NCBI RefSeq assembly: GCF_018881975.1
Contig: NZ_JACVPJ010000003.1
Coordinates: 248,001 to 312,000 of the forward strand
Source: Polynucleobacter sp. JS-Safj-400b-B2
GTDB taxonomy: Bacteria; Pseudomonadota; Gammaproteobacteria; Burkholderiales; Burkholderiaceae
Direction: 5' to 3'
Length of the DNA stretch: 64,000 nucleotides
Of this stretch, positions 9,372-29,340 are shown in pieces. The notes under the pieces were generated by a model that saw only the letters and a program-made list of their open reading frames with translations, was not told the DNA's origin and made no database searches. Each line of letters opens with the position of its first letter. Position 1 is the first letter of the stretch. A program made the position numbers and the translations under genes.

Positions 9372-9372
9372 C

Positions 9373-9768: not shown

Positions 9769-9789
9769 TTAAGTCTTTATCATTGCCGC

Positions 9790-16362: not shown

Positions 16363-16438
16363 AAAGCCACCTGCGGGTGTTTTTGGTTTTTCTTAGTGGC
16401 CTGAAATGAATTTGACCAAGGCTATAGTAGCTCTAGCC
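16363..16438 (-). repeat. Decayed tRNA-Phe 3'-end/terminator copy 1
   Basis: Hairpin CCACC-TGC-GGGTG with T-tract (16363-16384), then 16390-16415 matches the 26-nt core at 29261-29286 at about 18 of 26 positions by eye, nearly all differences being G/C to A/T. The arm CCAAGGCT follows. The TPR gene stops immediately after it. This is the farthest recognisable copy from the tRNA. Confidence 0.6.
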
Positions 16439-16885
16439 CTACTTCTTAGACTTGTATTTTTTTATAGCCTCTTTTAAATCCGAATATTCCTCGCATCCAA
16501 AAGTACAGGCTTTATCCAATCTCGCTAGAAGCGCCTCAGCACCCGGCAAATCATTATTGATTAACTTAAGTTTTCCGTAATACTCAAGAGCGCCACGGTG
16601 ATTGGGGTCTATTTTCAATGCAGCTTGATAATATTTTTCTGCGCCTACCAAATCAGGCGGCTGTTTTTTTCGAAGACTATAACCAAGCAAATTATTCCAA
16701 TCGGCGGAGCTTGTGTCATTCGCAGACTGCAGTTGCTGTATTGCTTGATCATATTTTTCGGCTTTAATGCTTGCCCTAGCTTGAGTGAGCCATGCCGGAT
16801 CTTGTTTGGTCGGGGCAGTATCGGCCGCATGAGATGAACCAACGATTGAAAGGAACAATATAAGTGCTGGGAGTATTCTTTTCAT
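16439..16885 (-). CDS. Exported TPR-repeat protein
   Basis: A 148-residue protein with a signal peptide (about residues 1-20, ending SHA-AD) and two to three tetratricopeptide repeats between residues 35 and 115 (for example YYQAALKIDPNHRGALEYYG). A Cys pair in DKACTFGCEEY lies near the C-terminus. TPR proteins act as protein-protein scaffolds; the partner is unknown. It probably lies in the periplasm. Its stop codon abuts tRNA-derived copy 1. Confidence 0.75.
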   Translation of the reverse strand: MKRILPALILFLSIVGSSHAADTAPTKQDPAWLTQARASIKAEKYDQAIQQLQSANDTSSADWNNLLGYSLRKKQPPDLVGAEKYYQAALKIDPNHRGALEYYGKLKLINNDLPGAEALLARLDKACTFGCEEYSDLKEAIKKYKSKK

Positions 16886-17163
16886 TTGCAGGCCTTTGGT
16901 TAAGAATCTTTTAATGTCGTAAAAACTTTATTTCTATGCTAGGGTACCAACACGGCAAGAGTTGATCGGAAAAAATGAGGAATGAAGATTTTGCGATTGC
17001 TAGCTGTAAGTTGGAAAGCAGAAAACTTCTTACTTATCGTTTCCTCTAATGTCTGCTTGACCATTCTCGTATTCACTTTATAAGCTTTACTTCGATAGAG
17101 ATGTTCTGCAGCACACATAGCGGCCAGCCAATAGCCTGATTAACTAAGGAGCCTAGACTACCT

Positions 17164-17553
17164 TCAATCCTTATCGGCATATTGCATTTCGCCATTCCCA
17201 AATGACCAGTTTTCTTTGCTCACCTCAATCAAGTTGATAAAGACGTCTTGAGGTCTGACTTTCAGGTCTTGAACTAAAGCCTCACAAATAGCTTTAAATA
17301 AACTCTTTTTTAGATCCGTAGATCTACCAAAGCTGATAGTTGCCTGAATAAAAATAATCCCATCTGAGTATTCAATCCCCAAATAACTTTTTGGAATATT
17401 CAATTCTGATCCGTCGTGTCTAGTGATGATCTGAAACTTGTCGTCTTCAGGAACGTTGATTTGCTCTCGCATCACGTTATAGACAATATTGCCGACTTGC
17501 TGTGCAAAGCTTTCGGGGTATTTTTTACTTAAATCAATTCTGACCAATGGCAT
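17164..17553 (-). CDS. Tautomerase / MIF-superfamily protein
   Basis: A 129-residue protein beginning MPLVRIDLSKKYP. The Pro after Met is the general base in this superfamily. Two ATG codons are adjacent; the second (17553) is chosen because it exposes Pro1 and has GGAG seven bases upstream. The length suggests a fused or trimeric MIF-like form rather than a 62-residue 4-oxalocrotonate tautomerase. The substrate is unknown. The 278-bp gap on its left (16886-17163) shows no gene. Confidence 0.75.
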   Translation of the reverse strand: MPLVRIDLSKKYPESFAQQVGNIVYNVMREQINVPEDDKFQIITRHDGSELNIPKSYLGIEYSDGIIFIQATISFGRSTDLKKSLFKAICEALVQDLKVRPQDVFINLIEVSKENWSFGNGEMQYADKD

Positions 17554-17624
17554 CATTATTCTCCTTAGCCCTTACCTTCTTATATTGCTCTAGCAACTGC
17601 TGTCTAGCTTAACGCGCGCCCAAT

Positions 17625-17648
17625 AAAAAACCACCCTAAGGTGGTTAT
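17625..17648 (-). terminator. tRNA-Phe-type terminator hairpin, copy 2
   Basis: Hairpin AACCACC-CTAA-GGTGGTT flanked by A and T tracts, the same hairpin as the one after tRNA-Phe (29232-29255) with one loop change. The tRNA part is not recognisable here. It ends the lipoprotein gene. Confidence 0.75.
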
Positions 17649-18137
17649 TTATTTTTGAGCTGTCTTAATAAAGACTGTCTCACTAATCTTATCAAAAGCA
17701 TTTTGATAGATGACCGGATCTAGTATCGGAGTGTCGTTTTCACCAGAGCCAAACACACCTCCACCACGCGTTTTATCAACAAAATTTAAACGGACGCGGG
17801 ATTTCTTGGGGCCTACTGCTTCTACCGCCACCGTCACTACTGTCTTTTGTTCTGAGCCTGAAACTGGAATGGGTAGCATGCCTATGAAATAAACGCTGCC
17901 GCTAGTGCCCTTTGCAGGTGACTGCGCGGTAATGAACCCTGTTTCAAAACTGGCAGACCCGATGATGTATCCCAAATCCTGAAGAACTGACAAAGAAGAA
18001 TCAAACGAAGTTTTTTTATCTACGTCAAAGTTTTTTGCCTGAATCGCCTGAATTTCAAGAGAGGTCAACTGGGGCTTTGCCGGCCCTGAAGAGCAAGCAC
18101 TCAAAAATGAAAGCAAAAAAATACCGGTGATGGCCAA
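17649..18137 (-). CDS. Lipoprotein of unknown function
   Basis: A 162-residue predicted lipoprotein: signal MAITGIFLLSFLSAC with lipobox LSAC, then a mature domain starting SSGPAKPQLTSLE. A glycine-rich tract (TRGGGVFGSGEND) lies near residue 125. No named family is recognised. It is a single-gene module between terminator copies 2 and 3. Confidence 0.6.
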   Translation of the reverse strand: MAITGIFLLSFLSACSSGPAKPQLTSLEIQAIQAKNFDVDKKTSFDSSLSVLQDLGYIIGSASFETGFITAQSPAKGTSGSVYFIGMLPIPVSGSEQKTVVTVAVEAVGPKKSRVRLNFVDKTRGGGVFGSGENDTPILDPVIYQNAFDKISETVFIKTAQK

Positions 18138-18203
18138 TAAGGATTCTATTATCCATGAAATTTAATGCCATTATTGATAATTAAATTACCTGCCTTCTGC
18201 AAT

Positions 18204-18260
18204 AAAGAACCACCTGAAGGTGGTTTTGGTGTCTTTAAATGGCCTCAGGCAGAACCTAAG
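18204..18260 (-). repeat. Decayed tRNA-Phe 3'-end/terminator copy 3
   Basis: Hairpin AACCACC-TGAA-GGTGGTT (18204-18227) followed by a weak match to the tRNA 3' end (about 12 of 19 positions by eye). The glycosyltransferase stop codon (18245) falls inside it, so the coding end and the repeat overlap. Confidence 0.55.
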
Positions 18261-18943
18261 ATTACGTTCTCAAGCGATTCTTCCTGGGCATGACTTTTTT
18301 CTAAATCCCGTGCCCGTGAAGTTTCATGGGAATATTTCAAAAAGTTTTCTCGATGCCTTCTGTAGAACAAAAGCCCCTCTTTAATGCTAGTCACCGAGGC
18401 GCCTTGTTCAAGCATCCTATCCCAAAGGTTCCAATCTTCTTGAGGATGGATGCCATCTTTATATCTTTTTTTATAGCCAATTTTTTGCCCAAATGCTGTG
18501 CGGTACATCATTGACCCGTGATGCTGCTCTTGACGATCCCAATAAAGGTCGCCCTGATAAGGCACGGTCTCACCGGGCACCCGATCTAATATTTCTTCTT
18601 TTAATTCGCCTGTTACAACAATGTCATAGGTAACAATATCGGTGCTAGCATTTGATAACAGCTCAATTGCATCTGAACGTAACCAGTTATCGGCGCCTAT
18701 GAAGAGTACGTATTCTGTGTCGATTTGAGACAGTATGTTCTGAAAGTTATCTACAACCCCCAAATTTTCATGCCTTAGTATGTACTCAATATCAGGATAT
18801 AGGTCTGGCAAATGACCGCAATCTAACCCGCCATCATCAACAAATAGAATCTTTTCGGGACGAATAGTTTGTGAAAGCAGGGACTCAATGCAATGGGCTG
18901 CAAGGTGCCCGTACCTAAATGAGGCAATAACGACAGTAATCAT
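18245..18943 (-). CDS. Family 2 glycosyltransferase
   Basis: A 232-residue GT-A fold enzyme: N-terminal MITVVIASFRYGHLAAHCIES nucleotide-sugar site, then ILFVDDGG and FIGADNWL, where the Asp residues would bind the metal and sugar nucleotide. A later QEDWNLWDRML segment resembles the acceptor/base ED motif. No membrane helix is seen. It would decorate a surface glycan; donor and acceptor are unknown. A single-gene module between repeat copies 3 and 4. Confidence 0.8.
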   Translation of the reverse strand: MITVVIASFRYGHLAAHCIESLLSQTIRPEKILFVDDGGLDCGHLPDLYPDIEYILRHENLGVVDNFQNILSQIDTEYVLFIGADNWLRSDAIELLSNASTDIVTYDIVVTGELKEEILDRVPGETVPYQGDLYWDRQEQHHGSMMYRTAFGQKIGYKKRYKDGIHPQEDWNLWDRMLEQGASVTSIKEGLLFYRRHRENFLKYSHETSRARDLEKSHAQEESLENVILGSA

Positions 18944-19007
18944 ATTGAGTCGGATTAGAGCATAAAACTATGACATTGGTACTCATTAAATCTAGGCCAG
19001 TCAAAAT

Positions 19008-19090
19008 GAAAAGCTGCCCAAAGGTGGTTTTGGTGACTCTTAGTGGCTTGGGGCGAAACCAAACCATGGCCGAGAATGCTTAATCCAACC
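19008..19090 (-). repeat. Decayed tRNA-Phe 3'-end/terminator copy 4
   Basis: Imperfect hairpin ending in AAAGGTGGTTTT (19008-19031), then 19037-19062 matches the 26-nt core at about 19 of 26 positions by eye. A CCATGGCC arm resembling the CCA(A/G)GGCC arms of other copies follows. Confidence 0.6.
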
Positions 19091-19122
19091 CCCTTAATAA
19101 GCACCGCAATGAAACCAGTGAA

Positions 19123-19521
19123 TTATTTCAGATCCCTCAGAGCGATTAAGAGCGGGTGGTCAGCAGGAAAATTCATATTCTCAACGGCTACTGCTATTTC
19201 GGGTAATTTTTTAGCCACTTCTTCACTACCCTGAAAAACCATAGTCCACTTACTAAAGCTTCTATGTTCAATTGGCCTTGACTCTACGAGGTGAATATTT
19301 TTATGCCTAGTATCTTTTTGAATTTTTTCCCATAGCTCTTCAATCTGAACCCTTGGTCCTTCAATAACCTGACCAAAGCGATTATTTTCAAAAATCAAAG
19401 CGCCCGTTACCCCCAAGCTCGTATTTCTTAAATAGGAGTGATAAAGCAAACGCATCAAGCCTAGAAAGGACATTTCTTGGGTAGGCTCACTCACATACGT
19501 TAATTCAGTCAACTGGGTCAT
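19123..19521 (-). CDS. BLUF-domain blue-light sensor
   Basis: A 132-residue stand-alone BLUF protein. The flavin-binding triad is in place: Tyr9 (LTYVSE), Asn33 (RNTSLGVTGALI) and Gln51 (FGQVIEG), matching the spacing of known photoreceptors. The later RPIEHRSFSKWTMVF segment is also typical. It binds FAD and signals blue light to an unknown partner, since no output domain is fused. A single-gene module between copies 4 and 5. Confidence 0.9.
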   Translation of the reverse strand: MTQLTELTYVSEPTQEMSFLGLMRLLYHSYLRNTSLGVTGALIFENNRFGQVIEGPRVQIEELWEKIQKDTRHKNIHLVESRPIEHRSFSKWTMVFQGSEEVAKKLPEIAVAVENMNFPADHPLLIALRDLK

Positions 19522-19596
19522 AAAGTTCTAATATATAGAAATATCTAAATTAACACAGGCAATATCAATAATTCCTCACGATCAGTAGTGACAAAT

Positions 19597-19680
19597 AAAA
19601 AACCACCCGAAGGTGGTTTTGGCCATTCTTGATTGCCCAGGGCGAAATCGACCAAGGCCTCAGGAGACTCGCATCCTACC
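19597..19680 (-). repeat. tRNA-Phe 3'-end/terminator copy 5
   Basis: A hairpin identical to that after tRNA-Phe (19597-19620). Core 19626-19651 matches at about 22 of 26 positions. The following arm CCAAGGCCT and a short stem AGGA/TCCT resemble copies at 26.5 and 28.3 kb. The antitoxin gene ends just after it. Confidence 0.7.
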
Positions 19681-19686
19681 TCTAGA

Positions 19687-19905
19687 CTACTTCCAGCTAA
19701 GGTTCAATTTCTTATGCGAAGTGGCACAATCTCTCAAATAGAGATTAATGAGGCTTTGATAAGGAATGCCAACTTCTTCTGATATAGATTTGAAGTAGCT
19801 TACTGAATCCTCGTCCAATCTAATGGTTATAGGCTTCTTTAGCATAGAAGCATATGGGTTTTTACGAGCCTTTGAGAAATCATATTCTTTACGCATCTTC
19901 ATCAC
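19687..19905 (-). CDS. BrnA-like antitoxin
   Basis: A 72-residue protein with a ribbon-helix-helix-like segment, KPITIRLDEDSVSYFKS...GIPYQSLINLYLRDC, as in BrnA/CopG antitoxins. It follows the toxin gene with a 2-bp gap, the usual toxin-first BrnTA order. It would bind BrnT and repress the operon through its DNA-binding domain. Confidence 0.8.
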   Translation of the reverse strand: MMKMRKEYDFSKARKNPYASMLKKPITIRLDEDSVSYFKSISEEVGIPYQSLINLYLRDCATSHKKLNLSWK

Positions 19906-19907
19906 CT

Positions 19908-20186
19908 TTAATAAGCTTTTGACTCTTTAGGGGTTGCCTTACGAGCCGAAATAATACGAACGACATTACCCTCGCTTCGATAACAATGGCAAACCAAAAT
20001 CACACGAAGTGAATGGCTTACTCCCAGCAAAATAAATCTGTCTTCATTCTCCGAATGATCGGGATCGGAAATCAACTTAGCGCTTTCATCATAAAACACA
20101 GATTTCGCCTCTTCAAAAGAAATGCCGTGTTTCTTCAGATTAGCTGAAGCTTTTTTGGGTTCCCATTCAAATCGCAATAAAGTCAT
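19908..20186 (-). CDS. BrnT-family ribonuclease toxin
   Basis: A BrnT (DUF497) toxin: [22 protein letters not shown] and later [24 protein letters not shown], where the Arg, His and Glu positions expected for the RelE-like RNase fold are present. The frame could start at 20201, but the palindromic operator overlaps that segment, so ATG at 20186 (92 residues) is preferred. The module lies between tRNA-derived copies 5 and 6, where toxin-antitoxin pairs often stabilise islands. Confidence 0.85.
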
Positions 20187-20202
20187 ATGTACATTGTACA
20201 TA
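20186..20202. promoter_or_regulatory. Palindromic operator at the brnT start
   Basis: TATGTACATTGTACATA is a perfect 8-bp inverted repeat around one central base, at the 5' end of the toxin gene. Placement fits autoregulation by the ribbon-helix-helix antitoxin. Confidence 0.65.
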
Positions 20203-20269
20203 CATCAATTGGAGCAAGCAACTGGGGTTAAAAATCCTAATTCACTCAACCATTCCGTCGGACCAAATG

Positions 20270-20353
20270 AAAAAACCACCCGAAGGTGGTTTTAGTGTTT
20301 CTTGGTGGCCCGGGGCGGAATCGAACCACCGACACAAGGATTTTCAAATATCC
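20270..20353 (-). repeat. tRNA-Phe 3'-half/terminator copy 6 (longest copy)
   Basis: A hairpin identical to that of tRNA-Phe (20270-20293). Positions 20299-20347 are 49 nt identical to the tRNA-Phe 3' end, from beyond CCA through the T arm into the anticodon loop. The 5' half of the tRNA is absent, so it is not a functional tRNA. Confidence 0.9.
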
Positions 20354-20669
20354 TCCGATAGACCGCTTTCGCTTTGATTTCAAGGGCTTGAGCCACCAGC
20401 CTCAACTTGTCTAAAAATTGTGCATCCTTGTGCTGGTCAAATTTGGCAATGAAATCAGAATCTTGCGAGGGGCTATTTTTCTGTGCGCACAGATTGTGTT
20501 GCCATATCCTTCCACTCAACTGCCATAGTGTCTTGTAATGTCGTTTAAAACGACATCTATCGTTAATTATCGCGGCAACTTTTACTTTGATAGCCTTATA
20601 TGCGTATATACGCATATATGAGATGTCTTTTTAAAGGACGTTTCAGTAAGCGTCTATTACATCGACGCT
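20354..20669. other. Gene-poor spacer with palindromes
   Basis: No convincing gene. A minus-strand frame of 107 codons crosses the spacer and reads into the tRNA fragment; it could hold the tail of a dead gene. The right part holds ATGTCGTTTAAAACGACAT (20538-20556), ATATGCGTATATACGCATAT (20598-20617) and an imperfect GTC..GAC repeat (20625-20639), related to elements at 23.2, 23.4 and 26.4 kb. Confidence 0.6.
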
Positions 20670-20681
20670 TAAATTGCTGTT

Positions 20682-21695
20682 TTAGTAATAACTAAGCGGC
20701 TCAGTTTTGCCCCAGAAGATTTTGTAGGAATAAATGGTGTATCCGATAATAGTTGGTAGCACAATTACAGCGCCCCAAAATATTACCCATAATGACTCTG
20801 TAGCGGAAGCCGCTTCCCAGATTGTCATTTTGTCCACGACGATATAAGGAAACATGCTGTAAGCAATTCCTAAAAAAGCCAGAACAAAGATGGCTACGCT
20901 TAGGGCAAAAGGAATCCAAACTGCCGCTGGCTTATCTCTTTGCATTTTTATCAAGTTCAAATCAATTAAGACAAAACACGCCAGGGTCAGAACTGGAAAA
21001 GGAAGTAAGAAAAAGATATTAGGAAGGTTAAACCACTTAGCCGCAATCGCTGAACTAAAGAATGGTGTCGCCACAGAAATAATCCCAACACCTAGCGCCG
21101 TTAATAAGAGGCATTTTCTTGCCCAGCCAACAGCCTTAAGTTGTAACTCGCCAGACGTCTTCATAATCAGCCAGCTGGCTCCTAATAGAGCATATCCAGC
21201 AGGCAGACAAAGCGCCACGATGAAAGAAAATATCCAACCTAAGTAGCCCGAATCAAAACCAATCACCTCTCTACCAACCATCACACCTTGGGATGCCGCC
21301 GCCAAGAAACTACCAAAAAAGAATAAAAAATTCCAGACTGCCTTCTGGCTCAAATGTGCTTTTGCGCGAAAGTCAAAAGATACGCCTCGCAATATTAAGC
21401 CGGCCAACATGATGCCCACAGGCAAATAAAGCTCGGTCAGAATGATTCCATGTGCCATTGGAAAGGCAATCAAGAGTACGCCAACTCCAAGCACTAACCA
21501 CGTTTCATTCGCATCCCAAAAAGGGCCGATTGATGAAATCATGATGTCTTTTTCAGAATCGCTTGCCTGATTTAATAAGATGCCAACGCCTAGGTCATAT
21601 CCGTCCAGAACAACATAAGCGACCATAGCAATGCCCATTGCAACCAAAAAGAAAAGTGGCAACCAACCCGATGGTTCAGATAAATTAGGAATCAT
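20682..21695 (-). CDS. cydB: Cytochrome bd-type quinol oxidase subunit II
   Basis: A 337-residue membrane subunit with about eight helices. It opens with a family-typical helix containing VLDGYDLGVGILL and continues GPFWDANETWLVLGVG, the best conserved CydB segment. It pairs with CydA two bases upstream to form a high-affinity terminal oxidase that uses quinol to reduce oxygen to water without pumping protons. It lies 3' in the operon and is followed by the palindrome spacer. No separate CydX peptide is evident. Confidence 0.93.
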   Translation of the reverse strand: MIPNLSEPSGWLPLFFLVAMGIAMVAYVVLDGYDLGVGILLNQASDSEKDIMISSIGPFWDANETWLVLGVGVLLIAFPMAHGIILTELYLPVGIMLAGLILRGVSFDFRAKAHLSQKAVWNFLFFFGSFLAAASQGVMVGREVIGFDSGYLGWIFSFIVALCLPAGYALLGASWLIMKTSGELQLKAVGWARKCLLLTALGVGIISVATPFFSSAIAAKWFNLPNIFFLLPFPVLTLACFVLIDLNLIKMQRDKPAAVWIPFALSVAIFVLAFLGIAYSMFPYIVVDKMTIWEAASATESLWVIFWGAVIVLPTIIGYTIYSYKIFWGKTEPLSYY

Positions 21696-21697
21696 GT

Positions 21698-23050
21698 TTA
21701 TGCTCCGGCAATGCTGTTGGTCAAGCCTGATTTTTGCCCATCAATAATATGCACAGGATTAGTTTGTCTTGCCAAATAAAAAACCACCCAAATGTAAGAA
21801 ACAATGAGTCCCAAATAAAGTACTACGTACATCACCAAGGTTCCCAAAATCATATTAGTAGGCACTTTAGTAACTGCATCAGCCGTTTTTAGGACTCCAC
21901 TAACAAGATAGGGCTGTCTACCAATTTCAGTCACGTACCAACCAGCAAGCACTCCTAGCCAACCAGAAAATGTCATAACGTTTAGAGCTTTTAAGAACCA
22001 CCTTGGTAATTCTTTACTTTTTCTGGTCAGATAAAAGCCAATGCCTGCAGTAAAGAGCATCAACATACCAATGCCGACCATAATGCGAAAAGCAAAAAAC
22101 ACGGGCTTAACTGGTGGAGTAGCGCCAGGGAAGGCATCTAAACCTTTCACCTCTCCATCTAATGAGTGGGTCAAATATAAAGATGCCAGCTTTGGAATGG
22201 CTATTTCATATTGATTAGCTTTAAGGCTTTCATCGGGTATGGCAAATAAAACCGCAGGGGCACCTTTTGTTGTTTCCCAAATTCCCTCCATTGCCGCCAC
22301 TTTTACAGGCTGATACTCTAACGTATTTAGGCCATGCAAATCACCAAGCACAATTTGAAATGGTGTCAATACAACCGCTACAGACATTGCTAACTTAATC
22401 AGGGCTCGGTTGCCAGAAAGATTAATGCCCTTTAAATATCGATAAGCAGAAATGCCTGCAATTAAAAATGTTACCGTCAAAAATGAGGCTGTCATCATAT
22501 GGAACAAGCGATAGGGCATCGAAGGATTAAAGACAATCTCAATCCAACTGGTCGCATGTGCTTGTCCATTGATCATCACAAACCCTTGTGGAGTTTGCAT
22601 CCATGAATCTAATGCAATGATCCAAAATGCTGAAAGCGAAGTACCGAAAGCAACTAGAAATGTGGCGACAGTATGAGCCCTTTGAGAGACTCGCTTAGAG
22701 CCAAACAACATGATTCCTAAAAAAGTTGCCTCAAGAAAGAATGCGGATAAAACCTCATAACCCAGTAATGGCCCTGCGATATTGCCTACAGCCTCCATAT
22801 ATCCAGGCCAATTGGTTCCAAACTGAAAGCTCATCGTAATGCCACTAACAACACCCAGAGCAAAAGTTAAGGCAAATATCTTGACCCAGAATTGATAAGC
22901 ATCACTCCATATCGAATCGCCTGTTTTATTAAATTTAACTTTGAAATAGAAGAGTACCCACCCCAATGCAATGGATATCGTTGGGAAAAGAATATGAAAG
23001 GTCATATTCGAAGCAAATTGAATTCTGCTCAAAATAAGCGTATCAAGCAT
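21698..23050 (-). CDS. cydA: Cytochrome bd-type quinol oxidase subunit I
   Basis: A 450-residue haem-bearing subunit. Haem ligands are visible: His19 (MTFHILFP, haem b595 side), His184 (YRLFHMM, haem b558) and a late Met in PTNMILGT. Glu99 in GYEV and Glu107 line the proton path. The Q-loop is short, as in the cyanide-insensitive CioA branch, so this could also be called cioA. It would support growth at low oxygen or under haem-copper oxidase inhibition. Flanking palindromes at 20.6 and 23.2 kb suggest that cydAB moved as a unit. Confidence 0.93.
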   Translation of the reverse strand: MLDTLILSRIQFASNMTFHILFPTISIALGWVLFYFKVKFNKTGDSIWSDAYQFWVKIFALTFALGVVSGITMSFQFGTNWPGYMEAVGNIAGPLLGYEVLSAFFLEATFLGIMLFGSKRVSQRAHTVATFLVAFGTSLSAFWIIALDSWMQTPQGFVMINGQAHATSWIEIVFNPSMPYRLFHMMTASFLTVTFLIAGISAYRYLKGINLSGNRALIKLAMSVAVVLTPFQIVLGDLHGLNTLEYQPVKVAAMEGIWETTKGAPAVLFAIPDESLKANQYEIAIPKLASLYLTHSLDGEVKGLDAFPGATPPVKPVFFAFRIMVGIGMLMLFTAGIGFYLTRKSKELPRWFLKALNVMTFSGWLGVLAGWYVTEIGRQPYLVSGVLKTADAVTKVPTNMILGTLVMYVVLYLGLIVSYIWVVFYLARQTNPVHIIDGQKSGLTNSIAGA

Positions 23051-23169
23051 TTAATTACCTCTTATTGATAGATTACCTAAATTATTATGCTCTTTACTTT
23101 CATGGCTTGCTGAGCCTGACTTAATAGTCTTTTTCTCAACATGACGATTGAAATGAAAGTGCTAATAGC

Positions 23170-23235: not shown

Positions 23236-23241
23236 TTGAAG

Positions 23242-23418
23242 TTAAAGCTCTTTATATTTCTTACCCAACTTCTCAGGATTGCCATTTCCATAAAGACACC
23301 ACTGCTTAATTTCTTCGGTGAGCTGTTCAATATCCTTCATCTTCAGATTTCTAAAGTCTTCAAGCCCAATAGACCCAGTCTGTCTTAATTTCTCTAGAGC
23401 TTCTTTTAATGCCTTCAT
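23242..23418 (-). CDS. 58-residue protein of unknown function
   Basis: A short gene read by eye from ATG 23418 to TAA 23242. The predicted protein is highly charged and helical, starting MKALKEALEKLRQTGSIGLEDF and continuing ...EEIKQWCLYGNGNPEKLGKKY (residues about 36-56). It contains one Cys and no signal peptide. It stands alone between palindrome cluster B and the palindrome at 23443-23459. No family recognised. Confidence 0.5.
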   Translation of the reverse strand: MKALKEALEKLRQTGSIGLEDFRNLKMKDIEQLTEEIKQWCLYGNGNPEKLGKKYKEL

Positions 23419-23442
23419 ATGAGTTTTAGATAATGCCGAATT

Positions 23443-23459
23443 TGTCGTTTAAAACGACA
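23443..23459. repeat. TGTCGTTTAAAACGACA palindrome C
   Basis: Perfect 8-bp arms around one base; identical copies lie within 20538-20556 and 26337-26355. It lies about 50 bp beyond the end of the YeeE gene. Confidence 0.75.
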
Positions 23460-23508
23460 TCGCGAGTTAAGGCGTAGCGAGAGCCAACTACAAAGCTCTC
23501 GCATACCT

Positions 23509-24039
23509 TCAAAGTCCTTTTTTCTCAAACCAGCGAAACATACCAAGAGTAATCAACGCGAATACTACGGCAACAACCCATTGATTAACGCCAAGAGTCT
23601 CGGGTAATCCAATCTTTCCTAAGTCGGCCCAAGCAAGCACCGTTGATTTAAAGAATGGATACATTTGGGCATAAATTCCTGCGCCAACTACCATGCCAAT
23701 AACTCCAAAGATTGCAGTCCAGCGACCTTCACCCACTGCGCCTACTGAGGTGCCAGGACAATAGCCCAAGACTGCCCAACCTACCCCAAACAATGCGCCG
23801 CCCACCAAAATGCCACCAACATTCATTGCTTTAAGGCTCAATGTAATAAGCCCCATCTCATGCAAAGCCAAGATGCCAAACATTCCGACAACAATAGCTG
23901 AGAGCATAAATTTAAAAATCGTCATGTCTTTTAATAACAATGCGGCAACTTGCTTGTCATAGCGTAGAACACGCCCTTTTTGTAATAAGAAACCAAAGAT
24001 AACGCCAGTTGCTAATCCTAATAGTTGATCTATAGACAT
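23509..24039 (-). CDS. YeeE/YedE-family membrane protein (second half-type, DUF6691-like)
   Basis: A 176-residue, five-helix membrane protein. A central WAVLGYCPGTSVGAVGEGRW segment carries the conserved Cys of YeeE/YedE proteins, which in characterised relatives passes thiosulfate or sulfur through the membrane. It follows its partner YeeE/YedE gene with a 2-bp gap, so the two likely form one transporter from split halves. Confidence 0.8.
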   Translation of the reverse strand: MSIDQLLGLATGVIFGFLLQKGRVLRYDKQVAALLLKDMTIFKFMLSAIVVGMFGILALHEMGLITLSLKAMNVGGILVGGALFGVGWAVLGYCPGTSVGAVGEGRWTAIFGVIGMVVGAGIYAQMYPFFKSTVLAWADLGKIGLPETLGVNQWVVAVVFALITLGMFRWFEKKGL

Positions 24040-24041
24040 GA

Positions 24042-24596
24042 TTAGCTTGCCTTTCTGTACATGAAGTTTGCGACGATGACGCCAAAACCAAAGAACATGG
24101 CTAATGCGACAAAAGAACTTACGGATAACTGCATCATGCCGCTCAGTCCATGTCCACTAGGACAGCCATCAGCTAAGCGAGCGCCAATCATTGCCACGAT
24201 GCCACCAACAAAAGCAAATACAGCACGCTTTGGAACTGAAGAGCCAAAACGTTTTTCCCATAATGGTGGCAAGCTTTCTAACTTAAAACTGCCATCCATT
24301 TTTGAGGAAAGCAATGCGCCAAAGAAGATGCCAATCACCATGAGAAATTGCCAATCAATAACAACTTTTTCTTTTGCGTAATAAACATTTTGTGCAACAT
24401 AACTGGGGTCTACCACTTGAACTGCTAGACCTGCCGCGCGAACAAAAGTAGTTGATGCCCCCAAATAGGTAGACTTGCCCATATAAATGGTAGTCAGGTA
24501 TACAGAAACAATAGCCAGTACTCCAACTAAGGCACCTGTCAAATAGGGACTCCACCCTTTAGAGCTAGATGCTCTAGTTTGTTCTGGATTGATCAT
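24042..24596 (-). CDS. YeeE/YedE-family membrane protein (first half)
   Basis: A 184-residue membrane protein with about four helices and the family segment GARLADGCPSGHGLSG, whose Cys is the predicted sulfur-relay residue. It is translated just after the DUF2892 gene and just before the second YeeE/YedE half. The trio probably imports a sulfur compound such as thiosulfate. The upstream FNR-like box suggests control by a Crp/Fnr protein. Confidence 0.8.
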   Translation of the reverse strand: MINPEQTRASSSKGWSPYLTGALVGVLAIVSVYLTTIYMGKSTYLGASTTFVRAAGLAVQVVDPSYVAQNVYYAKEKVVIDWQFLMVIGIFFGALLSSKMDGSFKLESLPPLWEKRFGSSVPKRAVFAFVGGIVAMIGARLADGCPSGHGLSGMMQLSVSSFVALAMFFGFGVIVANFMYRKAS

Positions 24597-24641
24597 CGTA
24601 AATCCTTATTAGTGATTTGCTTGTTAGCTGTTGGCAAAAGA

Positions 24642-24854
24642 TTACTTAGAACAACTGCCATTGCCACGGCCAGCGCCACAAGAATTGATTCCCAAGATTG
24701 GATACATTGGGCAGAACTTAAATAAGCCAGTTGCCAAAGGAATAATTCCAATCCAGCCCCATACGCCAACCACATTGCTTGCGGCTAAACCAACTAAGAC
24801 CAGTCCAACAGAGATGCGTAGTACGCGATCGATACGGCCAACATTACATTTCAT
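24642..24854 (-). CDS. DUF2892 small membrane protein
   Basis: A 70-residue protein opening MKCNVGRIDRVLRISVGL, the DUF2892 signature also found at the C-terminus of rhodanese YgaP. Two helices follow, then FCPMYPILGINSCG with two Cys. Such proteins often accompany rhodanese or YeeE systems and may handle sulfane sulfur at the membrane. It is the first gene of the YeeE operon. Confidence 0.8.
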   Translation of the reverse strand: MKCNVGRIDRVLRISVGLVLVGLAASNVVGVWGWIGIIPLATGLFKFCPMYPILGINSCGAGRGNGSCSK

Positions 24855-24915
24855 ATAACCCCCATTAATTATTATTTTTGCTTTGTTAAGACTATGCTCA
24901 TAAGCACCAAGCCAT

Positions 24916-24929
24916 TTGATCTATATCAA
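24916..24929. promoter_or_regulatory. Perfect FNR-type box
   Basis: TTGATCTATATCAA matches the consensus TTGAT-N4-ATCAA exactly and lies 62 bp upstream of the DUF2892 start, a position typical for class II or nearby activation. The linked Crp/Fnr gene at 25.7 kb is the obvious candidate regulator. Confidence 0.7.
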
Positions 24930-24953
24930 TAACTTGTCTGCATTGAGCGGTGT

Positions 24954-24973
24954 TACCACCCGAAGGTGGCTTC
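24954..24973 (-). terminator. tRNA-Phe-type terminator hairpin, isolated copy
   Basis: CCACC-CGAA-GGTGG has the same stem and loop as the tRNA-Phe terminator but lacks the long A/T tracts and has no tRNA core beside it. It lies after the Met-rich protein gene and may mark another old module border. Confidence 0.45.
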
Positions 24974-24991
24974 TACCCACGCTCAACTGAT

Positions 24992-25369
24992 TTATCCGCA
25001 GTTTCTGCCCGACATCATTTGCGGGCCATGTCCTGCTGGCAAAGTAATGCCTTTTTCTTTGGCGCGCTTTTCCATCTCTGTATGTGTAGCTGTCATGATT
25101 GCTTGCCGCTCTTCTACTGTCTTGGCATCAATCATCTTGTCCATCATGGCCAGTCTTTCGGCAGGAGTCATCAACTCACGCATAATTTTCATGTTGGCGT
25201 TTTGCCCCATCATCTGACCTTGCATCATTTGGCCGCGCATCATGCCTGGGCCCATGCCATTACCCATTGGACCTGGCTGAGCATAGGCTACAGCCAATCC
25301 AAGACCCATGACAGTGGCAACGCTAATTGCAATTTTGTTTACAGTTTTCATTTTGAATTTCCTATTCAT
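24992..25369 (-). CDS. Met/His-rich exported protein
   Basis: A 125-residue protein with a signal peptide (MKTVNKIAISVATVMGLGLA, cut near YAQ; the true start may be the second Met). The mature part holds a Met-rich block (MGNGMGPGMMRGQMM) followed by a helical region with LMTPAERLAMMDKMIDAKT, similar in style to Spy/CpxP-like or copper-binding periplasmic proteins. Met clusters often bind Cu(I) or Ag(I). It follows the heavy-metal-associated protein gene by 4 bp. Confidence 0.7.
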   Translation of the reverse strand: MNRKFKMKTVNKIAISVATVMGLGLAVAYAQPGPMGNGMGPGMMRGQMMQGQMMGQNANMKIMRELMTPAERLAMMDKMIDAKTVEERQAIMTATHTEMEKRAKEKGITLPAGHGPQMMSGRNCG

Positions 25370-25373
25370 TTAG

Positions 25374-25652
25374 TTAGTTACAGCAACAACTTGTGCCACT
25401 CTTACAAGAACCACTCTTAGCCTTTGCTTGAGGCGATGCATCAGAACTGATCTTTGCGGGATAACCATCCTCTTCTAATGCCGCAATAATCTCTTTTACC
25501 TGTTGCGAGATATTGCCTTCAACCTTGACTGCGCCAGAGGCAAGATCTACCTCAACCTTTTGCACCCCAGCAATTGAATTAATGGCTTTTTCAACATGCT
25601 TTACGCAAGCACCACAAGTCATTCCACTTACCGTTAAATTGATTGTTTCCAT
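25374..25652 (-). CDS. Heavy-metal-associated (CopZ/MerP-like) protein with Cys-rich tail
   Basis: A 92-residue HMA-domain protein. The metal site is GMTCGACVKHVEKA near the N-terminus. Unusually, about 20 residues follow the HMA fold, ending SGSCKSGTSCCCN, adding four Cys that could bind more metal or sulfur. It would shuttle Cu(I) or a similar soft metal, probably in the cytosol because no signal peptide is seen. It is divergent from the Crp/Fnr gene. Confidence 0.85.
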   Translation of the reverse strand: METINLTVSGMTCGACVKHVEKAINSIAGVQKVEVDLASGAVKVEGNISQQVKEIIAALEEDGYPAKISSDASPQAKAKSGSCKSGTSCCCN

Positions 25653-25703
25653 ACCAACCTCCTTTGTATGAATTGATTATTCGCTCAATCATCCAAAGAG
25701 CGT

Positions 25704-25717
25704 ATGATTTAAATCAT
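25704..25717. promoter_or_regulatory. FNR-like palindrome between divergent genes
   Basis: ATGATTTAAATCAT is a perfect palindrome with FNR-type architecture (ATGAT-N4-ATCAT) ending right at the start codon of the Crp/Fnr gene and 50 bp from the divergent HMA gene. Likely autoregulation. Confidence 0.55.
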
Positions 25718-26323
25718 ATGGACATCTATATTCCTGAACTGCTAAAGGAGCTCCTGCCCAAAGGACTATTGGGGCAATGTCATGCCCATCACTTTGAAAA
25801 AGGTGATTACCTTTTCCATCAGGGCAAAAAACCTGAATACATGTTCTTTATTGTTTCGGGCGAAGCTGTTCTTACGAGAATCAGTAGCCATGGAGAGCCC
25901 ACTACATTACAAAGATGTAAGGGTGGCTTTGTCAGTGAAGCCAGTTTGTTAGTAGATGCTTATCACTGTGATGCTATTGCGACTCACAATGGACAAGCGA
26001 TCACGCTACCCATTAAATCTTTAAGAGAAGCACTCGCCGATAGCAAGTTCTCAATGAAATGGGTGCAGTTGCTAAGCAAAGAGATCATGCGCCTTCGAAC
26101 ACAATCTGAACGATTGGGACTCAAAGACATTCGCAGTAAATTAATTCATCTGATTGAGACCGAAGGCAAACAAGGCGTATTGACACTTCAGTCTGATTTC
26201 AAATCCATGGCTTCAGAGATCGGCGTTACGCATGAGGCGTTATATAGGGCTATCGCCACATTAGAAAAAGAAGGTCTACTAGAAAAACATCCTGATTCCT
26301 TGGAATTGCTAAAGAAAAAATAA
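25718..26323 (+). CDS. Crp/Fnr-family transcription regulator
   Basis: A 201-residue regulator with an N-terminal cyclic-nucleotide-type beta domain (residues 20-115) and a C-terminal winged helix (150-195). The recognition helix THEALYRAIA has Glu and Arg at the spacing of FNR (E-x3-R), consistent with a TTGAT/ATGAT half-site. It lacks the four-Cys cluster of FNR but has three Cys (GQC, QRC, YHC) that might sense redox or sulfur. ATG 25718 is chosen over the longer frame from 25643, which would overlap the divergent gene. It is the only plus-strand gene in the island. Confidence 0.85.
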   Translation: MDIYIPELLKELLPKGLLGQCHAHHFEKGDYLFHQGKKPEYMFFIVSGEAVLTRISSHGEPTTLQRCKGGFVSEASLLVDAYHCDAIATHNGQAITLPIKSLREALADSKFSMKWVQLLSKEIMRLRTQSERLGLKDIRSKLIHLIETEGKQGVLTLQSDFKSMASEIGVTHEALYRAIATLEKEGLLEKHPDSLELLKKK

Positions 26324-26336
26324 TACTCAAGAGGTA

Positions 26337-26452
26337 ATGTCGTTTAAAACGACATCTCAAGCACCGACCCTAGATGAGTGTCGCTTAAATCGACACTTGA
26401 CCACTACAGGGATGTCAAATCCCCCGTTCATTAAGCGTCCTTTAAAAGGACG
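26337..26452. repeat. Palindrome cluster D
   Basis: Three inverted repeats in 116 bp: ATGTCGTTTAAAACGACAT (26337-26355), GTGTCGCTTAAATCGACAC (26378-26396) and CGTCCTTTAAAAGGACG (26436-26452). All share GTC(C/G)...(G/C)GAC arms with a TTTAAA-type centre. The cluster closes the YeeE-Crp block. No gene is seen in 26324-26595. Confidence 0.75.
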
Positions 26453-26538
26453 ATTCAATATGGAGATATCTGGGAGAAATGGTGACTGACCGCGGCTGAC
26501 ACTAGAGATTCTATGGGCCAACTCTAATGCTTCAAGAA

Positions 26539-26591
26539 TTCTTGGTGGCCCAGGGCGGAATCGACCAGGGCCTAGGATGTCAAATCCTTGA
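26539..26591 (-). repeat. tRNA-Phe 3'-end copy 7
   Basis: Core 26539-26564 matches the tRNA-Phe 3' end at 25 of 26 positions. The arm then changes to CCAGGGCCT followed by a stem AGGAT/ATCCT, unlike tRNA-Phe. No terminator hairpin is attached; palindrome cluster D takes that place. Confidence 0.75.
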
Positions 26592-26595
26592 GGCA

Positions 26596-27201
26596 TTAAT
26601 GGGTATGCCCTTGCTTATTCATTGGCATCTGACCATTCATCATTTTCTGATGTTGCTTGATCATGTCGCCATGCCCATCAGGATGACAAAACTCATGATC
26701 CAAGTTATCACTCATTTGATGAGCATTGGTACCTTTGTATCCCAGAATACCTGGATCAAGCATGCCGGCAATCATGGCGATGTGTCCAAAAACCAAGAAC
26801 AAAGCAACACAGATCGCATGAATTTTTAGCTTACCCATTTGATCTAGTGCTCGATTAACCAAACCGAACTCTTGTAGGGCAATCCAGATCAGCGGTAATC
26901 CTGCGATGACATAAGTGCTAACAGCGATTACATCAATCACTGTTCTCCACTCGCCTGCCTGTGTAATAGGAATAATGGCGTTAGTCACAATGTAGTAAAT
27001 GATCCCAACAAAGTAAACACCCACAGCAATCCCAGAAAAGCGATTGAGGTAATAAACAGCACCATCGAACTTGCGAGTGAAGAGTAGATATAACTCAGTG
27101 ATAGCTAGGGTTTCGGCCAAAACAATTGGTATGGCCATAAAAATAATTAAATTCCAAGGCTGGTTAACAGCCAATAACTCCATGTAGTGAGTCATGTTCA
27201 T
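26596..27201 (-). CDS. Membrane protein with His/Met-rich C-terminus
   Basis: A 201-residue protein with five to six helices and a C-terminal tail rich in His and Met (HQMSDNLDHEFCHPDGHGDM, then QHQKMMNGQMPMNKQGHTH), a likely metal-binding extension. The helix region resembles the poorly described DUF6803-type permease-like proteins, but that assignment is weak. Close to another His-rich gene upstream (68-bp gap), it suggests a metal-related module. Confidence 0.55.
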   Translation of the reverse strand: MNMTHYMELLAVNQPWNLIIFMAIPIVLAETLAITELYLLFTRKFDGAVYYLNRFSGIAVGVYFVGIIYYIVTNAIIPITQAGEWRTVIDVIAVSTYVIAGLPLIWIALQEFGLVNRALDQMGKLKIHAICVALFLVFGHIAMIAGMLDPGILGYKGTNAHQMSDNLDHEFCHPDGHGDMIKQHQKMMNGQMPMNKQGHTH

Positions 27202-27269
27202 TGTGTTTCTCCAAAATATAAGCGTGACTAGGTGTCACAAATCAAACTAACTTGTATTACTAAATTAGC

Positions 27270-27608
27270 CTAGACTTTTGGAGGTTTATAGATAAAGTTG
27301 ATCATTGGCTGGAGAACCAATAATGAGCCTGTTGAAGGTGGGGCTTGGGTTGAGGCTATCGATAACTCAATACTCAATATTGGAATAACGACTAAGCCTA
27401 AACAGCACTGATAACTATCGCCATGGCAAGGTTGATTGGTATTTGTATCGTGAGAATTGCTCACTACCTCATCACAATGATGGGCTGAGTTATCGGCAAC
27501 AGTAACCTGATGTTGAGCCTGTTCAACCGATAAATCGATAGGCATCACTGCCGCATGAATCAAGCTGGCAAATAGACTAAAGCAAAGGGCGATACATATC
27601 CTTCTCAT
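27270..27608 (-). CDS. Exported Cys/His-containing protein, unknown
   Basis: A 112-residue protein with a signal peptide (about residues 1-19, MRRICIALCFSLFASLIHAA). The mature part contains HHCDEV and QPCHGDSYQCCLGLVV, giving four Cys and several His, and a second hydrophobic stretch around residues 72-95. It resembles small metal-resistance-operon proteins in composition only. It begins 20 bp from terminator copy 8. Confidence 0.5.
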   Translation of the reverse strand: MRRICIALCFSLFASLIHAAVMPIDLSVEQAQHQVTVADNSAHHCDEVVSNSHDTNTNQPCHGDSYQCCLGLVVIPILSIELSIASTQAPPSTGSLLVLQPMINFIYKPPKV

Positions 27609-27633
27609 AATTCCATTCTACGCCCTACAAATG

Positions 27634-27710
27634 AAAAAACCACCCGAAGGTGGTTTTGGTGTTTCTTGGTGGCCCGGGGCGGAATCGAACCAAATCGAGG
27701 ATGTCCAATC
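27634..27710 (-). repeat. tRNA-Phe 3'-end/terminator copy 8
   Basis: Positions 27634-27691 match 29232-29289 of the tRNA-Phe locus except one base in the spacer (G for A). Beyond it a stem AGGAT/ATCCT remains but the loop differs. The DUF1003 stop codon at 27711 directly touches the repeat. Confidence 0.9.
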
Positions 27711-28226
27711 CTATCTTCTATAGCCATCTAATTTCTCGCTCAAAGCCTCAACCGCCTTAGTTAAAGCATAAAGCTCTTTTTCTTTCATCATGTCGATCTT
27801 TTGATGAAGTAATTCGATTTCTAGCTCTGCTTTTACATTGACTTCAAAGTCGTTATTGGCATGTTGCCGATCTATCTCTGAGAGTCTATTCTGACTCATC
27901 ATGATTGCTGGCGCTGTATAAGCCGCTTGAAATGACAGCATTAAATTCAAAAGAATGAAAGGGTATGGATCCCAAACATTGGCACTATTTACAGAGTTAT
28001 AAGAAATCCAACCCAAAATACAAACGCTTTGAATAATGATGAACTTCCAAGAGCCCACCGTTCTTGCTACCGCATCCGATATTTTTTGCCCAACAGTCAA
28101 TGGTCCTATGGGTTGCTCGACATGGGCTGTAATTTGGGTCGGCAGTCCTTGGCGATGCCTTTTTCTGTGGGCACGCAAAGCGTCTAAAACTTGAAGTTCT
28201 TGATTGGTAGGTATGGCTGTAGTCAT
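27711..28226 (-). CDS. DUF1003 membrane protein
   Basis: A 171-residue protein of the DUF1003 family: AVARTVGSWKFIIIQSVCIL begins the first helix, the second helix follows DPYPFILLNLMLSFQAAY, then MMSQNRLSEIDRQHANNDFEVN and a C-terminal coiled coil (about residues 125-168). Function unknown. A single-gene module bounded by tRNA-derived copies 8 and 9. Confidence 0.85.
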   Translation of the reverse strand: MTTAIPTNQELQVLDALRAHRKRHRQGLPTQITAHVEQPIGPLTVGQKISDAVARTVGSWKFIIIQSVCILGWISYNSVNSANVWDPYPFILLNLMLSFQAAYTAPAIMMSQNRLSEIDRQHANNDFEVNVKAELEIELLHQKIDMMKEKELYALTKAVEALSEKLDGYRR

Positions 28227-28268
28227 GGGGCTCTCCTAGTGTGCTTTCTGTACTCTACGCCCATAAAA

Positions 28269-28350
28269 GAAAATAGCCCAACAAGTGGGCTATTGAGATT
28301 CTTGGTGGCCCGGGGCGGAATCGGCCAGGGCCAGGGTTTCGAGATCCTTA
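28269..28350 (-). repeat. tRNA-Phe 3'-end copy 9 with a different terminator
   Basis: Core 28299-28323 is identical to the tRNA-Phe 3' end for 25 nt. The downstream hairpin is not the usual one: ATAGCCCA-ACAAG-TGGGCTAT (28273-28293). On the other side the arm is CCAGGGCC, as in copy 7, followed by a GGGT/ATCC stem. Confidence 0.85.
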
Positions 28351-28356
28351 AAGCTA

Positions 28357-29169
28357 CTAATGGCTATCCTGGCTTGAATGTTGCCCATATAAAACAAGTA
28401 AAGCCGCTACGACTGGAATGGTAGTGGCAAACATAGCTATTCCCGATCCCGCGAGATTAATCGGAGATGGATCAAGCAAAATAGGTCTCAACATCTGTGG
28501 CACTTCAAATATTAGATACAACAAAATGGGTAATAAAAAGAAATTGGGTGTTTTAGGTTTCGATATAAATTCCATTGCCTTAGCACTATTCGCAATCAAC
28601 CCAACTAATGCCGTAAAGAAACTGGTTAACACAAACCAACCAATAAAATTCTGAAGTGGGACACCAAAGTAAGCGCCTCCATTAGGCCAGACCCACAACC
28701 CTCGAACGGTTGATTGAAAGGGGTCATTTGAAAAATCATGAGTAGTCATGGCAAGGGCGGCAAAAATGGCGACGCCTATTAATCTAAGCCCAGTTACCCT
28801 GGTTGATAAACCGCCAATCACTGCCCTACCCATAATGAAGCAGGTATAGCCAAGAGGAAAATAAATCAACATAGCCATTGGCGGCACACCTAGAACTAAG
28901 GGTCCACTGAGACCTTCTGGGTAGTAATAGAGTCCATACAAAAATTGGAAATTAACGCCAAGTACTTCAGTAAAGTAGCCAGTCAACCAGGTGACAAGAA
29001 ATATCTTGATGGTAGTCGGCCGTCCCGCCCACATACTGCAGTGGATTAAACATAAAGCAACCGCCATATTTGAAACGGCATATGTGATTAACGGAGAATG
29101 ATATGAGAACGGATAAAGGCCGGCAATCAAGCAAAGTAATAGCAAGATCCAGCATGTGATTAGCTTCAT
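28357..29169 (-). CDS. Carotenoid biosynthesis-type membrane protein (DUF422/CruF-like)
   Basis: A 270-residue protein with seven to eight helices. The family segments GYFTEVLGVN, YYYPEGLSGP, VLGVPPMAMLIYFPLGY and HDFSNDPF match DUF422 proteins, which include CruF carotenoid hydratases and the bisanhydrobacterioruberin hydratase CruF/CYR group. No other carotenoid genes are visible here, so the substrate is open. It is the module next to the tRNA, hence the most recent in a serial-insertion model. Confidence 0.75.
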   Translation of the reverse strand: MKLITCWILLLLCLIAGLYPFSYHSPLITYAVSNMAVALCLIHCSMWAGRPTTIKIFLVTWLTGYFTEVLGVNFQFLYGLYYYPEGLSGPLVLGVPPMAMLIYFPLGYTCFIMGRAVIGGLSTRVTGLRLIGVAIFAALAMTTHDFSNDPFQSTVRGLWVWPNGGAYFGVPLQNFIGWFVLTSFFTALVGLIANSAKAMEFISKPKTPNFFLLPILLYLIFEVPQMLRPILLDPSPINLAGSGIAMFATTIPVVAALLVLYGQHSSQDSH

Positions 29170-29231
29170 TTGAGACTCCCCATTGATTAGTTACATTTTT
29201 AGCATAGATATATTTCCTAAGGGCCCAAATT

Positions 29232-29255
29232 AAAAAACCACCCGAAGGTGGTTTT
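29232..29255 (-). terminator. tRNA-Phe terminator (parent hairpin)
   Basis: AAAAAACCACC-CGAA-GGTGGTTTT lies 10 nt after the tRNA CCA end. It is the parent form of the hairpins at 16.4, 17.6, 18.2, 19.0, 19.6, 20.3, 25.0 and 27.6 kb. Confidence 0.9.
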
Positions 29256-29264
29256 GGTATTTCT

Positions 29265-29340
29265 TGGTGGCCCGGGGCGGAATCGAACCACCGACACAAG
29301 GATTTTCAATCCTCTGCTCTACCGACTGAGCTACCAGGCC
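29265..29340 (-). tRNA. tRNA-Phe (GAA)
   Basis: A complete 76-nt cloverleaf with encoded CCA. The acceptor stem GGCCTGG pairs with CCGGGCC (one G-T wobble); D arm AGCTCAGTCGGTAGAGC; anticodon stem GAGGA/TCCTT with loop TTGAAAA, giving anticodon GAA; T stem GGTGG/CCGCC with loop TTCGATT; discriminator A. It is the integration target implied by the partial copies to its left. Confidence 0.97.

Follow-up and report, generated by a model that had tools for sequence, protein, structure and literature searches.

A candidate tRNA-anchored cassette array behind the tRNA-Phe gene of Polynucleobacter

According to the available excerpts of the papers cited, Ca. Methylopumilus contains an additive island (fGI-2) with recurring 20-nt repeats of the tRNA-Lys 3' end (PMC10872708), tRNA-targeted cassettes occur in Actinomarinales (PMC7771536), additive islands in Alteromonas (PMC5217437) and tandem islands at ssrA in Dehalococcoides (PMC3146451), and integron arrays devoid of an integrase are known as CALINs (PMC11389934). 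In this work we analyzed an array of gene units located behind the 3' end of a tRNA-Phe gene in a 64-kb stretch of DNA (the window; C28:248001-312000), which belongs to a source genome of 2.63 Mb in 37 contigs and, as inferred from its named relatives, to the genus Polynucleobacter. With somewhat more confidence than doubt we interpret this locus as a tRNA-anchored cassette array composed of small units. Among the top-ranked results for the Polynucleobacter literature the array is undescribed; an earlier mention is possible, the 2017 paper on islands of the genus (PMC5244307) lying outside that coverage. The excerpt of another paper on Polynucleobacter islands mentions no tRNA (PMC5644125).

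The tRNA-Phe gene is the sole tRNA gene found by ARAGORN in the whole window. A profile of its 3'-end site revealed seven sites, each on the minus strand. One belongs to the tRNA itself, with the core starting at 29285, and the others are six copies with cores starting at 28323, 27687, 26563, 20323, 19650 and 19061. Their scores range from 57 to 19 bits, the lowest being at the far end, and the best score in five shuffled windows was 10.1. The hairpin sequence CCACCNNNNGGTGG (at most one mismatch) is present nine times in the window, eight times at the array locus, against 0.87 expected, and none of 100 shuffles reached nine. A first-pass annotation of this DNA had reported nine copies of a tRNA-Phe fragment and/or the same CCACC-CGAA-GGTGG hairpin. 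Six of these are sites, while the copies at 18.20, 17.63 and 16.37 kb are not above noise: in the first two a hairpin is present but no fragment can be recognised, and the last scores 3.4 bits, less than shuffled sequence. Therefore, the array extends over 19.04-29.34 kb of the window. The hairpin is not the same at all copies either, since a different one is found at 28.27 kb and none at 26.54 kb. The reported order of gene, tRNA fragment, terminator and next gene was as described, and the only plus-strand gene in the array (25643-26323) agrees with the reported count. The fragments are indeed derived from tRNA, but they are of two kinds. Left of the core, type B sites retain the sequence of the tRNA; type A comprises all remaining non-tRNA sites. 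Starting from the tRNA, the locus contains the following elements.

29265-29340, minus strand: intact tRNA-Phe(gaa), docking site of the array (ARAGORN); the site core is its 3' end, from 29285 downward
28324-29284, minus strand: unit 1, with its own terminator (29238-29251) and a carotenoid-synthesis (Caroten_synth) gene (28357-29169)
28300-28348, minus strand: type A site, derived left half and core, profile score 41 bits
27688-28322, minus strand: unit 2, with a GCCCAC-type terminator and a DUF1003 gene (27711-28226); homologues of 636 bp in genomes G110 and G079 and of 671 bp in G116
27664-27712, minus strand: type A site, profile score 55.7 bits
26564-27686, minus strand: unit 3, with a terminator, a small open reading frame (ORF) at 27270-27608 and a DUF6803 gene (26596-27201); homologue in G023
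26540-26588, minus strand: type A site close to the consensus, profile score 54.6 bits
20324-26562, no strand assigned: unit 4, 6.2 kb, multi-gene, also present in G080 with 98.5% identity; genes for a Crp-like regulator (25643-26323, plus strand), an HMA protein (25374-25652), Sulf_transp (24042-24596 and 23509-24039), CydA (21698-23050) and CydB (20682-21695)
20300-20353, minus strand: type B site, left half as in tRNA-Phe, profile score 56.2 bits
19651-20322, minus strand: unit 5, with a terminator, BrnT (19908-20201) and BrnA (19687-19905); homologues in eight further regions
19627-19675, minus strand: type A site with four core mismatches, profile score 31.7 bits
19062-19649, minus strand: unit 6, with a terminator and a BLUF gene (19123-19521); 589-bp homologue in G072
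19038-19086, minus strand: type A site, eroded, with six core mismatches, profile score 18.8 bits
16363-19037, minus strand: possibly an older, eroded part of the array, with GT2, tautomerase, TPR and unassigned genes and CCACC hairpins; no site above noise in the profile search of this stretch

For comparison between species we used 31 genomes, one per species and including that of the window, which contributed 44 regions (arrays and secondary regions). These regions were picked for holding sites and oriented to their majority site strand; one of the 44 (G000 C7) has no site. In total, a profile built from the regions revealed 265 sites, with none on the opposite strand: 31 tRNA genes, 40 type B sites and 194 type A sites. 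They bound 222 units with a median length of 1094 bp. The tRNA gene comes first in all 31 regions that hold it, and its 3' end is exact in each of them. The 24-nt core (at most two mismatches) was detected in 114 of 121 Polynucleobacter genomes, with at least two copies in 92 and at least ten in 13; 92 is the figure for repeats, because in a complete genome one copy is the tRNA itself. The reversed control pattern of the core was present in none of the rows. A search of the family for the type-A pattern gave hits in 39 of 61 Polynucleobacter genomes and in none of 337 genomes from 24 further genera (the tally of 39 in 398 comes from the search, the split into 61 and 337 from a hand count of its rows).

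The left half of type A sites has the consensus AG(GA/AG)TnAGRCATCCTCGGCCCTGGT, ahead of the core CGATTCCGCCCCGGGCCACCAAGAA. In 125 of the 194 sites ATCCT is located exactly 15 or 16 bp ahead of the core, and 63 contain no exact ATCCT. Judging from sequence, this half looks like a diverged tRNA-Phe anticodon arm with its spacing kept, and in our reading of the consensus GGCCCTGG would mirror CCCCGGGCC across an 8-bp centre, like the arms of a tyrosine-recombinase core. A hairpin in the half-site was rejected: among 85 sites selected for the second arm ATCCT, the first arm was AGGAT in 27 and AGAGT in 24, so that pairing is not kept. The attC sites of integrons are recognized by the pairs RYYYAAC...GTTRRRY. 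This signature was found in one of the 265 sites and in two of 1000 random stretches, and an attC-type site was therefore rejected. The core is also apparently unlike the general dif sequence, the core site of Xer-dependent elements. Type-B-ended units (n = 34) have a median length of 4243 bp and type-A-ended units (n = 188) one of 975 bp; a type B site opens six regions.

As a rule, a unit contains a terminator, an upstream region, usually one gene and the conserved half-site. Among units of 350-2000 bp, to which the ORF statistics were restricted, the longest ORF lies on the tRNA strand in 118 of 144 (p = 3e-15), and 109 of 152 have a single ORF of at least 70 aa. The core follows the stop codon of the longest forward ORF at a median distance of 31.5 bp, so that the half-site starts about at the stop. 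In total, 101 homologous units form 35 clusters; their lengths mostly agree within a few bp (e.g., eight units of 947-954 bp), with exceptions such as 2713 and 3350 bp. The first-pass annotation expected related genomes to differ by whole units. Between species this was the case: 138 of 140 homologous pairs from different genomes have no common homologous neighbour, a neighbour without a homologue being scored as not shared. With looser clusters, G106 and G030 have two adjoining units in common at the far end. Furthermore, 46 of 139 pairs are closer over their aligned parts than the rpoB regions of the same genomes, 31 of them by at least 3 points, and therefore some units have passed between species; rpoB served as the core yardstick in place of the tRNA-upstream sequence, which gave only 12 pairs. 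A set of 108 representative cassette proteins (from units of at most 2.5 kb, one per cluster, longest ORF at least 80 aa) matched 147 Pfam families, none with more than six members. Two candidate descriptions of the cargo were rejected using the same proteins, namely defence genes (nine PADLOC families with one member each) and phage genes (65 PHROG families, the 25 listed having at most three members each).

The arrays may be polar. Core mismatches increase away from the tRNA in 21 of the 25 arrays (out of 28) that have at least three non-tRNA sites, with a mean rho of 0.46, as high as in none of 500 permutations; the mean number of mismatches by array quarter is 0.56, 0.89, 1.42 and 2.81. 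As indirect evidence, this gradient would fit the newest cassettes being at the docking site, as in a polar integron array. Genome G103 contains the tRNA site alone, with no array. In G104, G107 and G081, the sequence after the last site matches the stretch 90-330 bp past the G103 core with 69-73% identity, whereas the sequence after the tRNA of these three genomes reaches only 45-47%. Both the gradient and the flank are accounted for by insertion behind the tRNA, each new unit displacing the older ones outward. The gene behind the G103 site could itself be an old unit, because in G106 and G030 the last site is immediately succeeded by the sequence that comes after this gene in G104.

In the average of homologous pairs, the excess identity at the upstream edge of units starts just behind the core and is absent left of it; at the downstream edge the excess ends at the core. 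Homologous pairs have the same terminator class at their upstream edge in 64 of 140 cases (21% in the control) and at their downstream edge in 34 of 140 (19% in the control). The upstream agreement means that the terminator tends to go with the gene downstream of it. These data bear on the explanation that the repeats are terminators or pseudo-tRNA pieces spread by duplication or gene conversion without relation to unit borders, which the first-pass annotation had named as a finding that would count against it. One exact hairpin (24956) does sit within unit 4 and not at a border, and those at 18.2 and 17.63 kb have no fragment; yet homologous units end at sites in different genomes, the strand bias is 265 to 0, and in G103 the downstream flank lies directly behind the tRNA. 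Given the strand bias, the unit ends and the edge homology, we rejected this explanation and consider it highly improbable.

In the mechanism that we propose for the cassette array, a unit would travel as a circle whose attachment site consists of its end half-site joined to a copied tRNA 3' end. A recombination event in the common T-arm/acceptor region would leave the tRNA whole, and insertion would set the unit's own terminator behind it, where this terminator would presumably end the tRNA transcript. Older units would be pushed outward and their sites would decay. Transient elements may supply the recombinase in trans; in the case of type-B islands, the enzyme is probably the two-recombinase module encoded by some of these islands.

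A number of observations weigh against this reading. The relative positions of homologous units are uncorrelated (rho 0.08, a value reached in 38 of 300 permutations). In G103 the 700 bp preceding tRNA-Phe show background identity (0.47) to the three array genomes, and G105, the other single-site genome, gave no empty-site match. Two exact site-pattern scans of IMG/VR returned no match, and the array has no near match in 50,697 phage and 72,556 plasmid records; phage or plasmid carriage of the array was rejected on these grounds. Breakpoints, placed in 36 pairs of at least 93% identity from 19 of the 35 clusters, are scattered over a zone of ~85 bp with no single crossover point: the posterior at the upstream edge is 0.23 for the core, 0.26 for the terminator, 0.33 beyond it and 0.17 for the half-site, and that at the downstream edge 0.24 for the core, 0.23 for the half-site, 0.12 to the left of the half-site, 0.21 for the terminator and 0.19 beyond. 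At individual junctions the length of the half-site is weakly associated with the class of terminator (p = 0.0099, among many comparisons made), an association not expected from one crossover within the core. Any linkage between half-site bases and terminator class was at best weak (103 of 161 junctions used; the 161 are those of the 265 sites that have at most three core mismatches and are not tRNA-like). Finally, no enzyme tied to type-A units was found in the arrays searched. G023, G113, G106 and G080 have arrays but three PF00589 genes each, and no relative of the larger protein of the recombinase module described below. Among 18 recombinase-like ORFs in or beside arrays, only two are in a type-A-ended unit, namely the recombinase pair in the 17-kb unit of G098b. 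The cassette-like accretion proposed by the first-pass annotation thus stands insofar as unit presence, order and neighbours vary between species and homology ends in the repeat zone, but the breakpoints are spread over this zone and not pinned to one point of the repeat.

Because the breakpoints span ~85 bp, RecA-dependent homologous recombination is a live rival. The half-site, core and terminator would then serve as homology arms for incoming DNA, e.g., taken up by transformation, with no dedicated recombinase. The spread of breakpoints across the whole repeat zone, the weak linkage of the junction halves and the four array genomes without a shared dedicated recombinase all speak for it. 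It leaves unexplained why a conserved half-site stands about at the stop codon of unrelated genes, as well as the decay gradient from the tRNA and the net insertion behind it, and secondary turnover of terminators could also have blurred the breakpoints. We hold this explanation to be unlikely. The spread itself may reflect either fast turnover of terminators and half-sites among copies or a part played by homologous recombination.

The first-pass annotation saw no recombinase, and indeed no recombinase was found among the 20 window array proteins searched, nor did the proteins searched from the window's type-B unit include a short recombinase or its larger partner. Recombinases are, however, present in larger units of some relatives' arrays. 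A search of the arrays with 41 queries revealed a PF00589 protein of 188-225 aa in six type-B-ended units of G025, G072, G079 and G110. It consists of little beyond the PF00589 catalytic domain (two of the six tested). Five of the six units also encode a second protein of 418-454 aa, and both G072 units have the pair. The larger protein was silent in Pfam (one tested) and resembles L133, a PF00589 match below the family cut-off. All six units have the organization of a type-B integrative island, with the tyrosine recombinase inside an att-bounded unit that carries the tRNA half. For type A, the genomes searched revealed no enzyme in common. For type B, a recombinase acting in trans is the simplest reading; for type A we only hypothesize the same.

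Relatives of the larger protein were found in 76 of 121 genomes, mostly with 30-50% identity and at many loci, and relatives of the G110 short recombinase with at least 78% identity in 14 of 121, not all at tRNA-Phe; the array-borne short recombinases of G072 and G079 are 60% and 52% identical to it. The pair, which is recurrent across the genus, may form a recombinase module. In nine regions, chosen for holding it, the short recombinase is encoded 2.3-9 kb upstream of tRNA-Phe, but it is absent from this position in G023 and G113. For this reason, and since the partner has no match in four genomes, the pair was rejected as the type-A enzyme. There are 16 PF00589 matches in the source genome. 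The eight array genomes searched contain 3 to 13 PF00589 genes each, two of which, conserved in all eight, are presumably XerC and XerD, judging from size and spread. Serine recombinases (PF00239) gave no match in four of nine genomes searched. A recombinase common to all hosts was therefore rejected, being seen neither with PF00589 in the eight genomes nor with PF00239 in the nine.

These enzymes lead to another rival explanation, in which the units are tandem integrative islands or cis-mobilizable remnants, that is, decayed recombinase islands that moved with their neighbours or by type-B recombinases. It is favoured by the tyrosine recombinase in six type-B-ended and one type-A-ended unit, mostly accompanied by the larger partner, and by the Dehalococcoides precedent (PMC3146451, in the excerpt available) together with the papers on cis-mobilizable elements (CIMEs). 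In addition, among 85 genomes of at least 95% completeness, those encoding a recombinase closely related to that of G110 contain more site copies (median 6 vs 3, p = 0.038); however, 30 of 73 genomes without such a relative still hold at least five copies. Type-A ends are unlike those of nearly all recombinase-bearing units, type-A-ended units are the smaller by their medians, and single-gene units of the same length in unlinked places are not expected from decay. In view of the recombinase genes inside a type-A-ended unit and the lack of a match at the upstream flank, we revised our estimate slightly upward for this explanation and slightly downward for the cassette array and its wider version given below; we nevertheless assign the island explanation a low probability. 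The wider version of the cassette array, which we put forward tentatively and consider rather doubtful, is a second natural cassette system beside integrons, with a genus-wide pool of small cassettes that have their own type-A half-site and terminator and are docked at the tRNA by a dedicated trans-acting recombinase non-resident in many hosts.

It should be mentioned that in the source genome the short recombinase and the larger partner are found a few kb apart at two places off the array:

G000:C35:34717-35280 and 38227-39384: recombinase pair
G000:C34:3782-4351 and 8691-9896: recombinase pair

In five regions (L258, L259, L260, L261 and L269, from G086, G070, G078, G034 and G075, respectively) a tyrosine recombinase of 188-225 aa lies 3-9 kb upstream of tRNA-Phe, with a weakly similar ORF of 404-413 aa on the other strand, and in G018, G033 and G090 the gene of the larger protein is close upstream of the tRNA. 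There may be another element upstream of tRNA-Phe in these genomes.

Short secondary arrays located off tRNA-Phe were also revealed, in G058 (C2:69000), G106 (C1:588189 and 1188283), G030 (C1:1323810), G078 (C1:1570167), G081 (C1:1488228-1500346) and G010 (C1:1582852). Several of them start with a degenerate tRNA-Phe-like sequence, which could be a second docking site. In L147 (G117) two tRNA-Phe-like sequences, 2.4 kb apart, stand at the array start. In the window, an ORF at 20292-20615 (minus strand) has its last residues encoded by the type B site, and similar ORFs end at type B sites of other genomes. The palindrome GTCGTTTAAAACGAC is found at window positions 20534-20554, 23438-23458 and 26333-26353, all within the 6.2-kb unit; it adjoins the Crp-like regulator gene and stands upstream of cydA, and is possibly an operator of this regulator.

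For the loosely described class of additive tRNA-repeat islands, the Polynucleobacter arrays define the unit and its end site and provide a polarity that can be tested; they also indicate exchange between species, one small unit per step, in a widespread freshwater genus. If a type-A recombinase exists, this would be integron-like gene capture on a different site; if not, standard repeat ends alone would suffice for a swappable gene store. The first-pass annotation knew of no standard feature type for the locus, but precedents exist in the additive genomic islands (PMC10872708) and the tandem ssrA islands of Dehalococcoides (PMC3146451), as far as the excerpts of these papers describe them. 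As in additive flexible genomic islands, units of one to many genes lie at a tRNA, are marked by copies of its 3' end and vary between strains, and the cargo is accessory and found in aquatic bacteria with small genomes (PMC10872708); the features of this class, namely a variable island, a fixed tRNA and cassettes with tRNA 3' repeats, are all present here. In contrast, the Methylopumilus repeat comprises the terminal 20 nt of its tRNA, and the excerpt reports no derived second half-site, terminator linkage, decay gradient or unit-shuffling test (PMC10872708). The Dehalococcoides islands likewise stand in tandem behind one RNA gene with an insertion point in the T-loop, have a repeat-adjacent motif unlike the RNA gene and in some cases no integrase, whereas many of them share a serine-recombinase integration module at the left edge (PMC3146451, excerpt). 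In Polynucleobacter the units are mostly small and usually contain a single gene, and the only module observed consists of tyrosine recombinases in large units.

In the window the units are att-flanked and have no recombinase or transfer genes among the proteins searched, as tandem cis-mobilizable elements do, while large units of relatives sometimes carry recombinases. CIMEs, mentioned in the excerpt of PMC3146451, are similarly att-flanked units without recombination genes, but they are thought to move with adjacent elements, and here single units recur with changed neighbours. Tycheposons, named in the excerpts of PMC10872708 and PMC11389934, are also tRNA-linked cargo elements of aquatic bacteria; they are described there as being 4-200 kb long and having a tyrosine recombinase. 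The Polynucleobacter site differs from that of integrons and CALINs in that it is tRNA-derived and lacks the attC signature, and no integrase was found among the window array proteins searched. What is shared with integrons and CALINs are small cassettes mostly in one orientation, an end site right after the gene, a docking site and an integrase possibly acting in trans.

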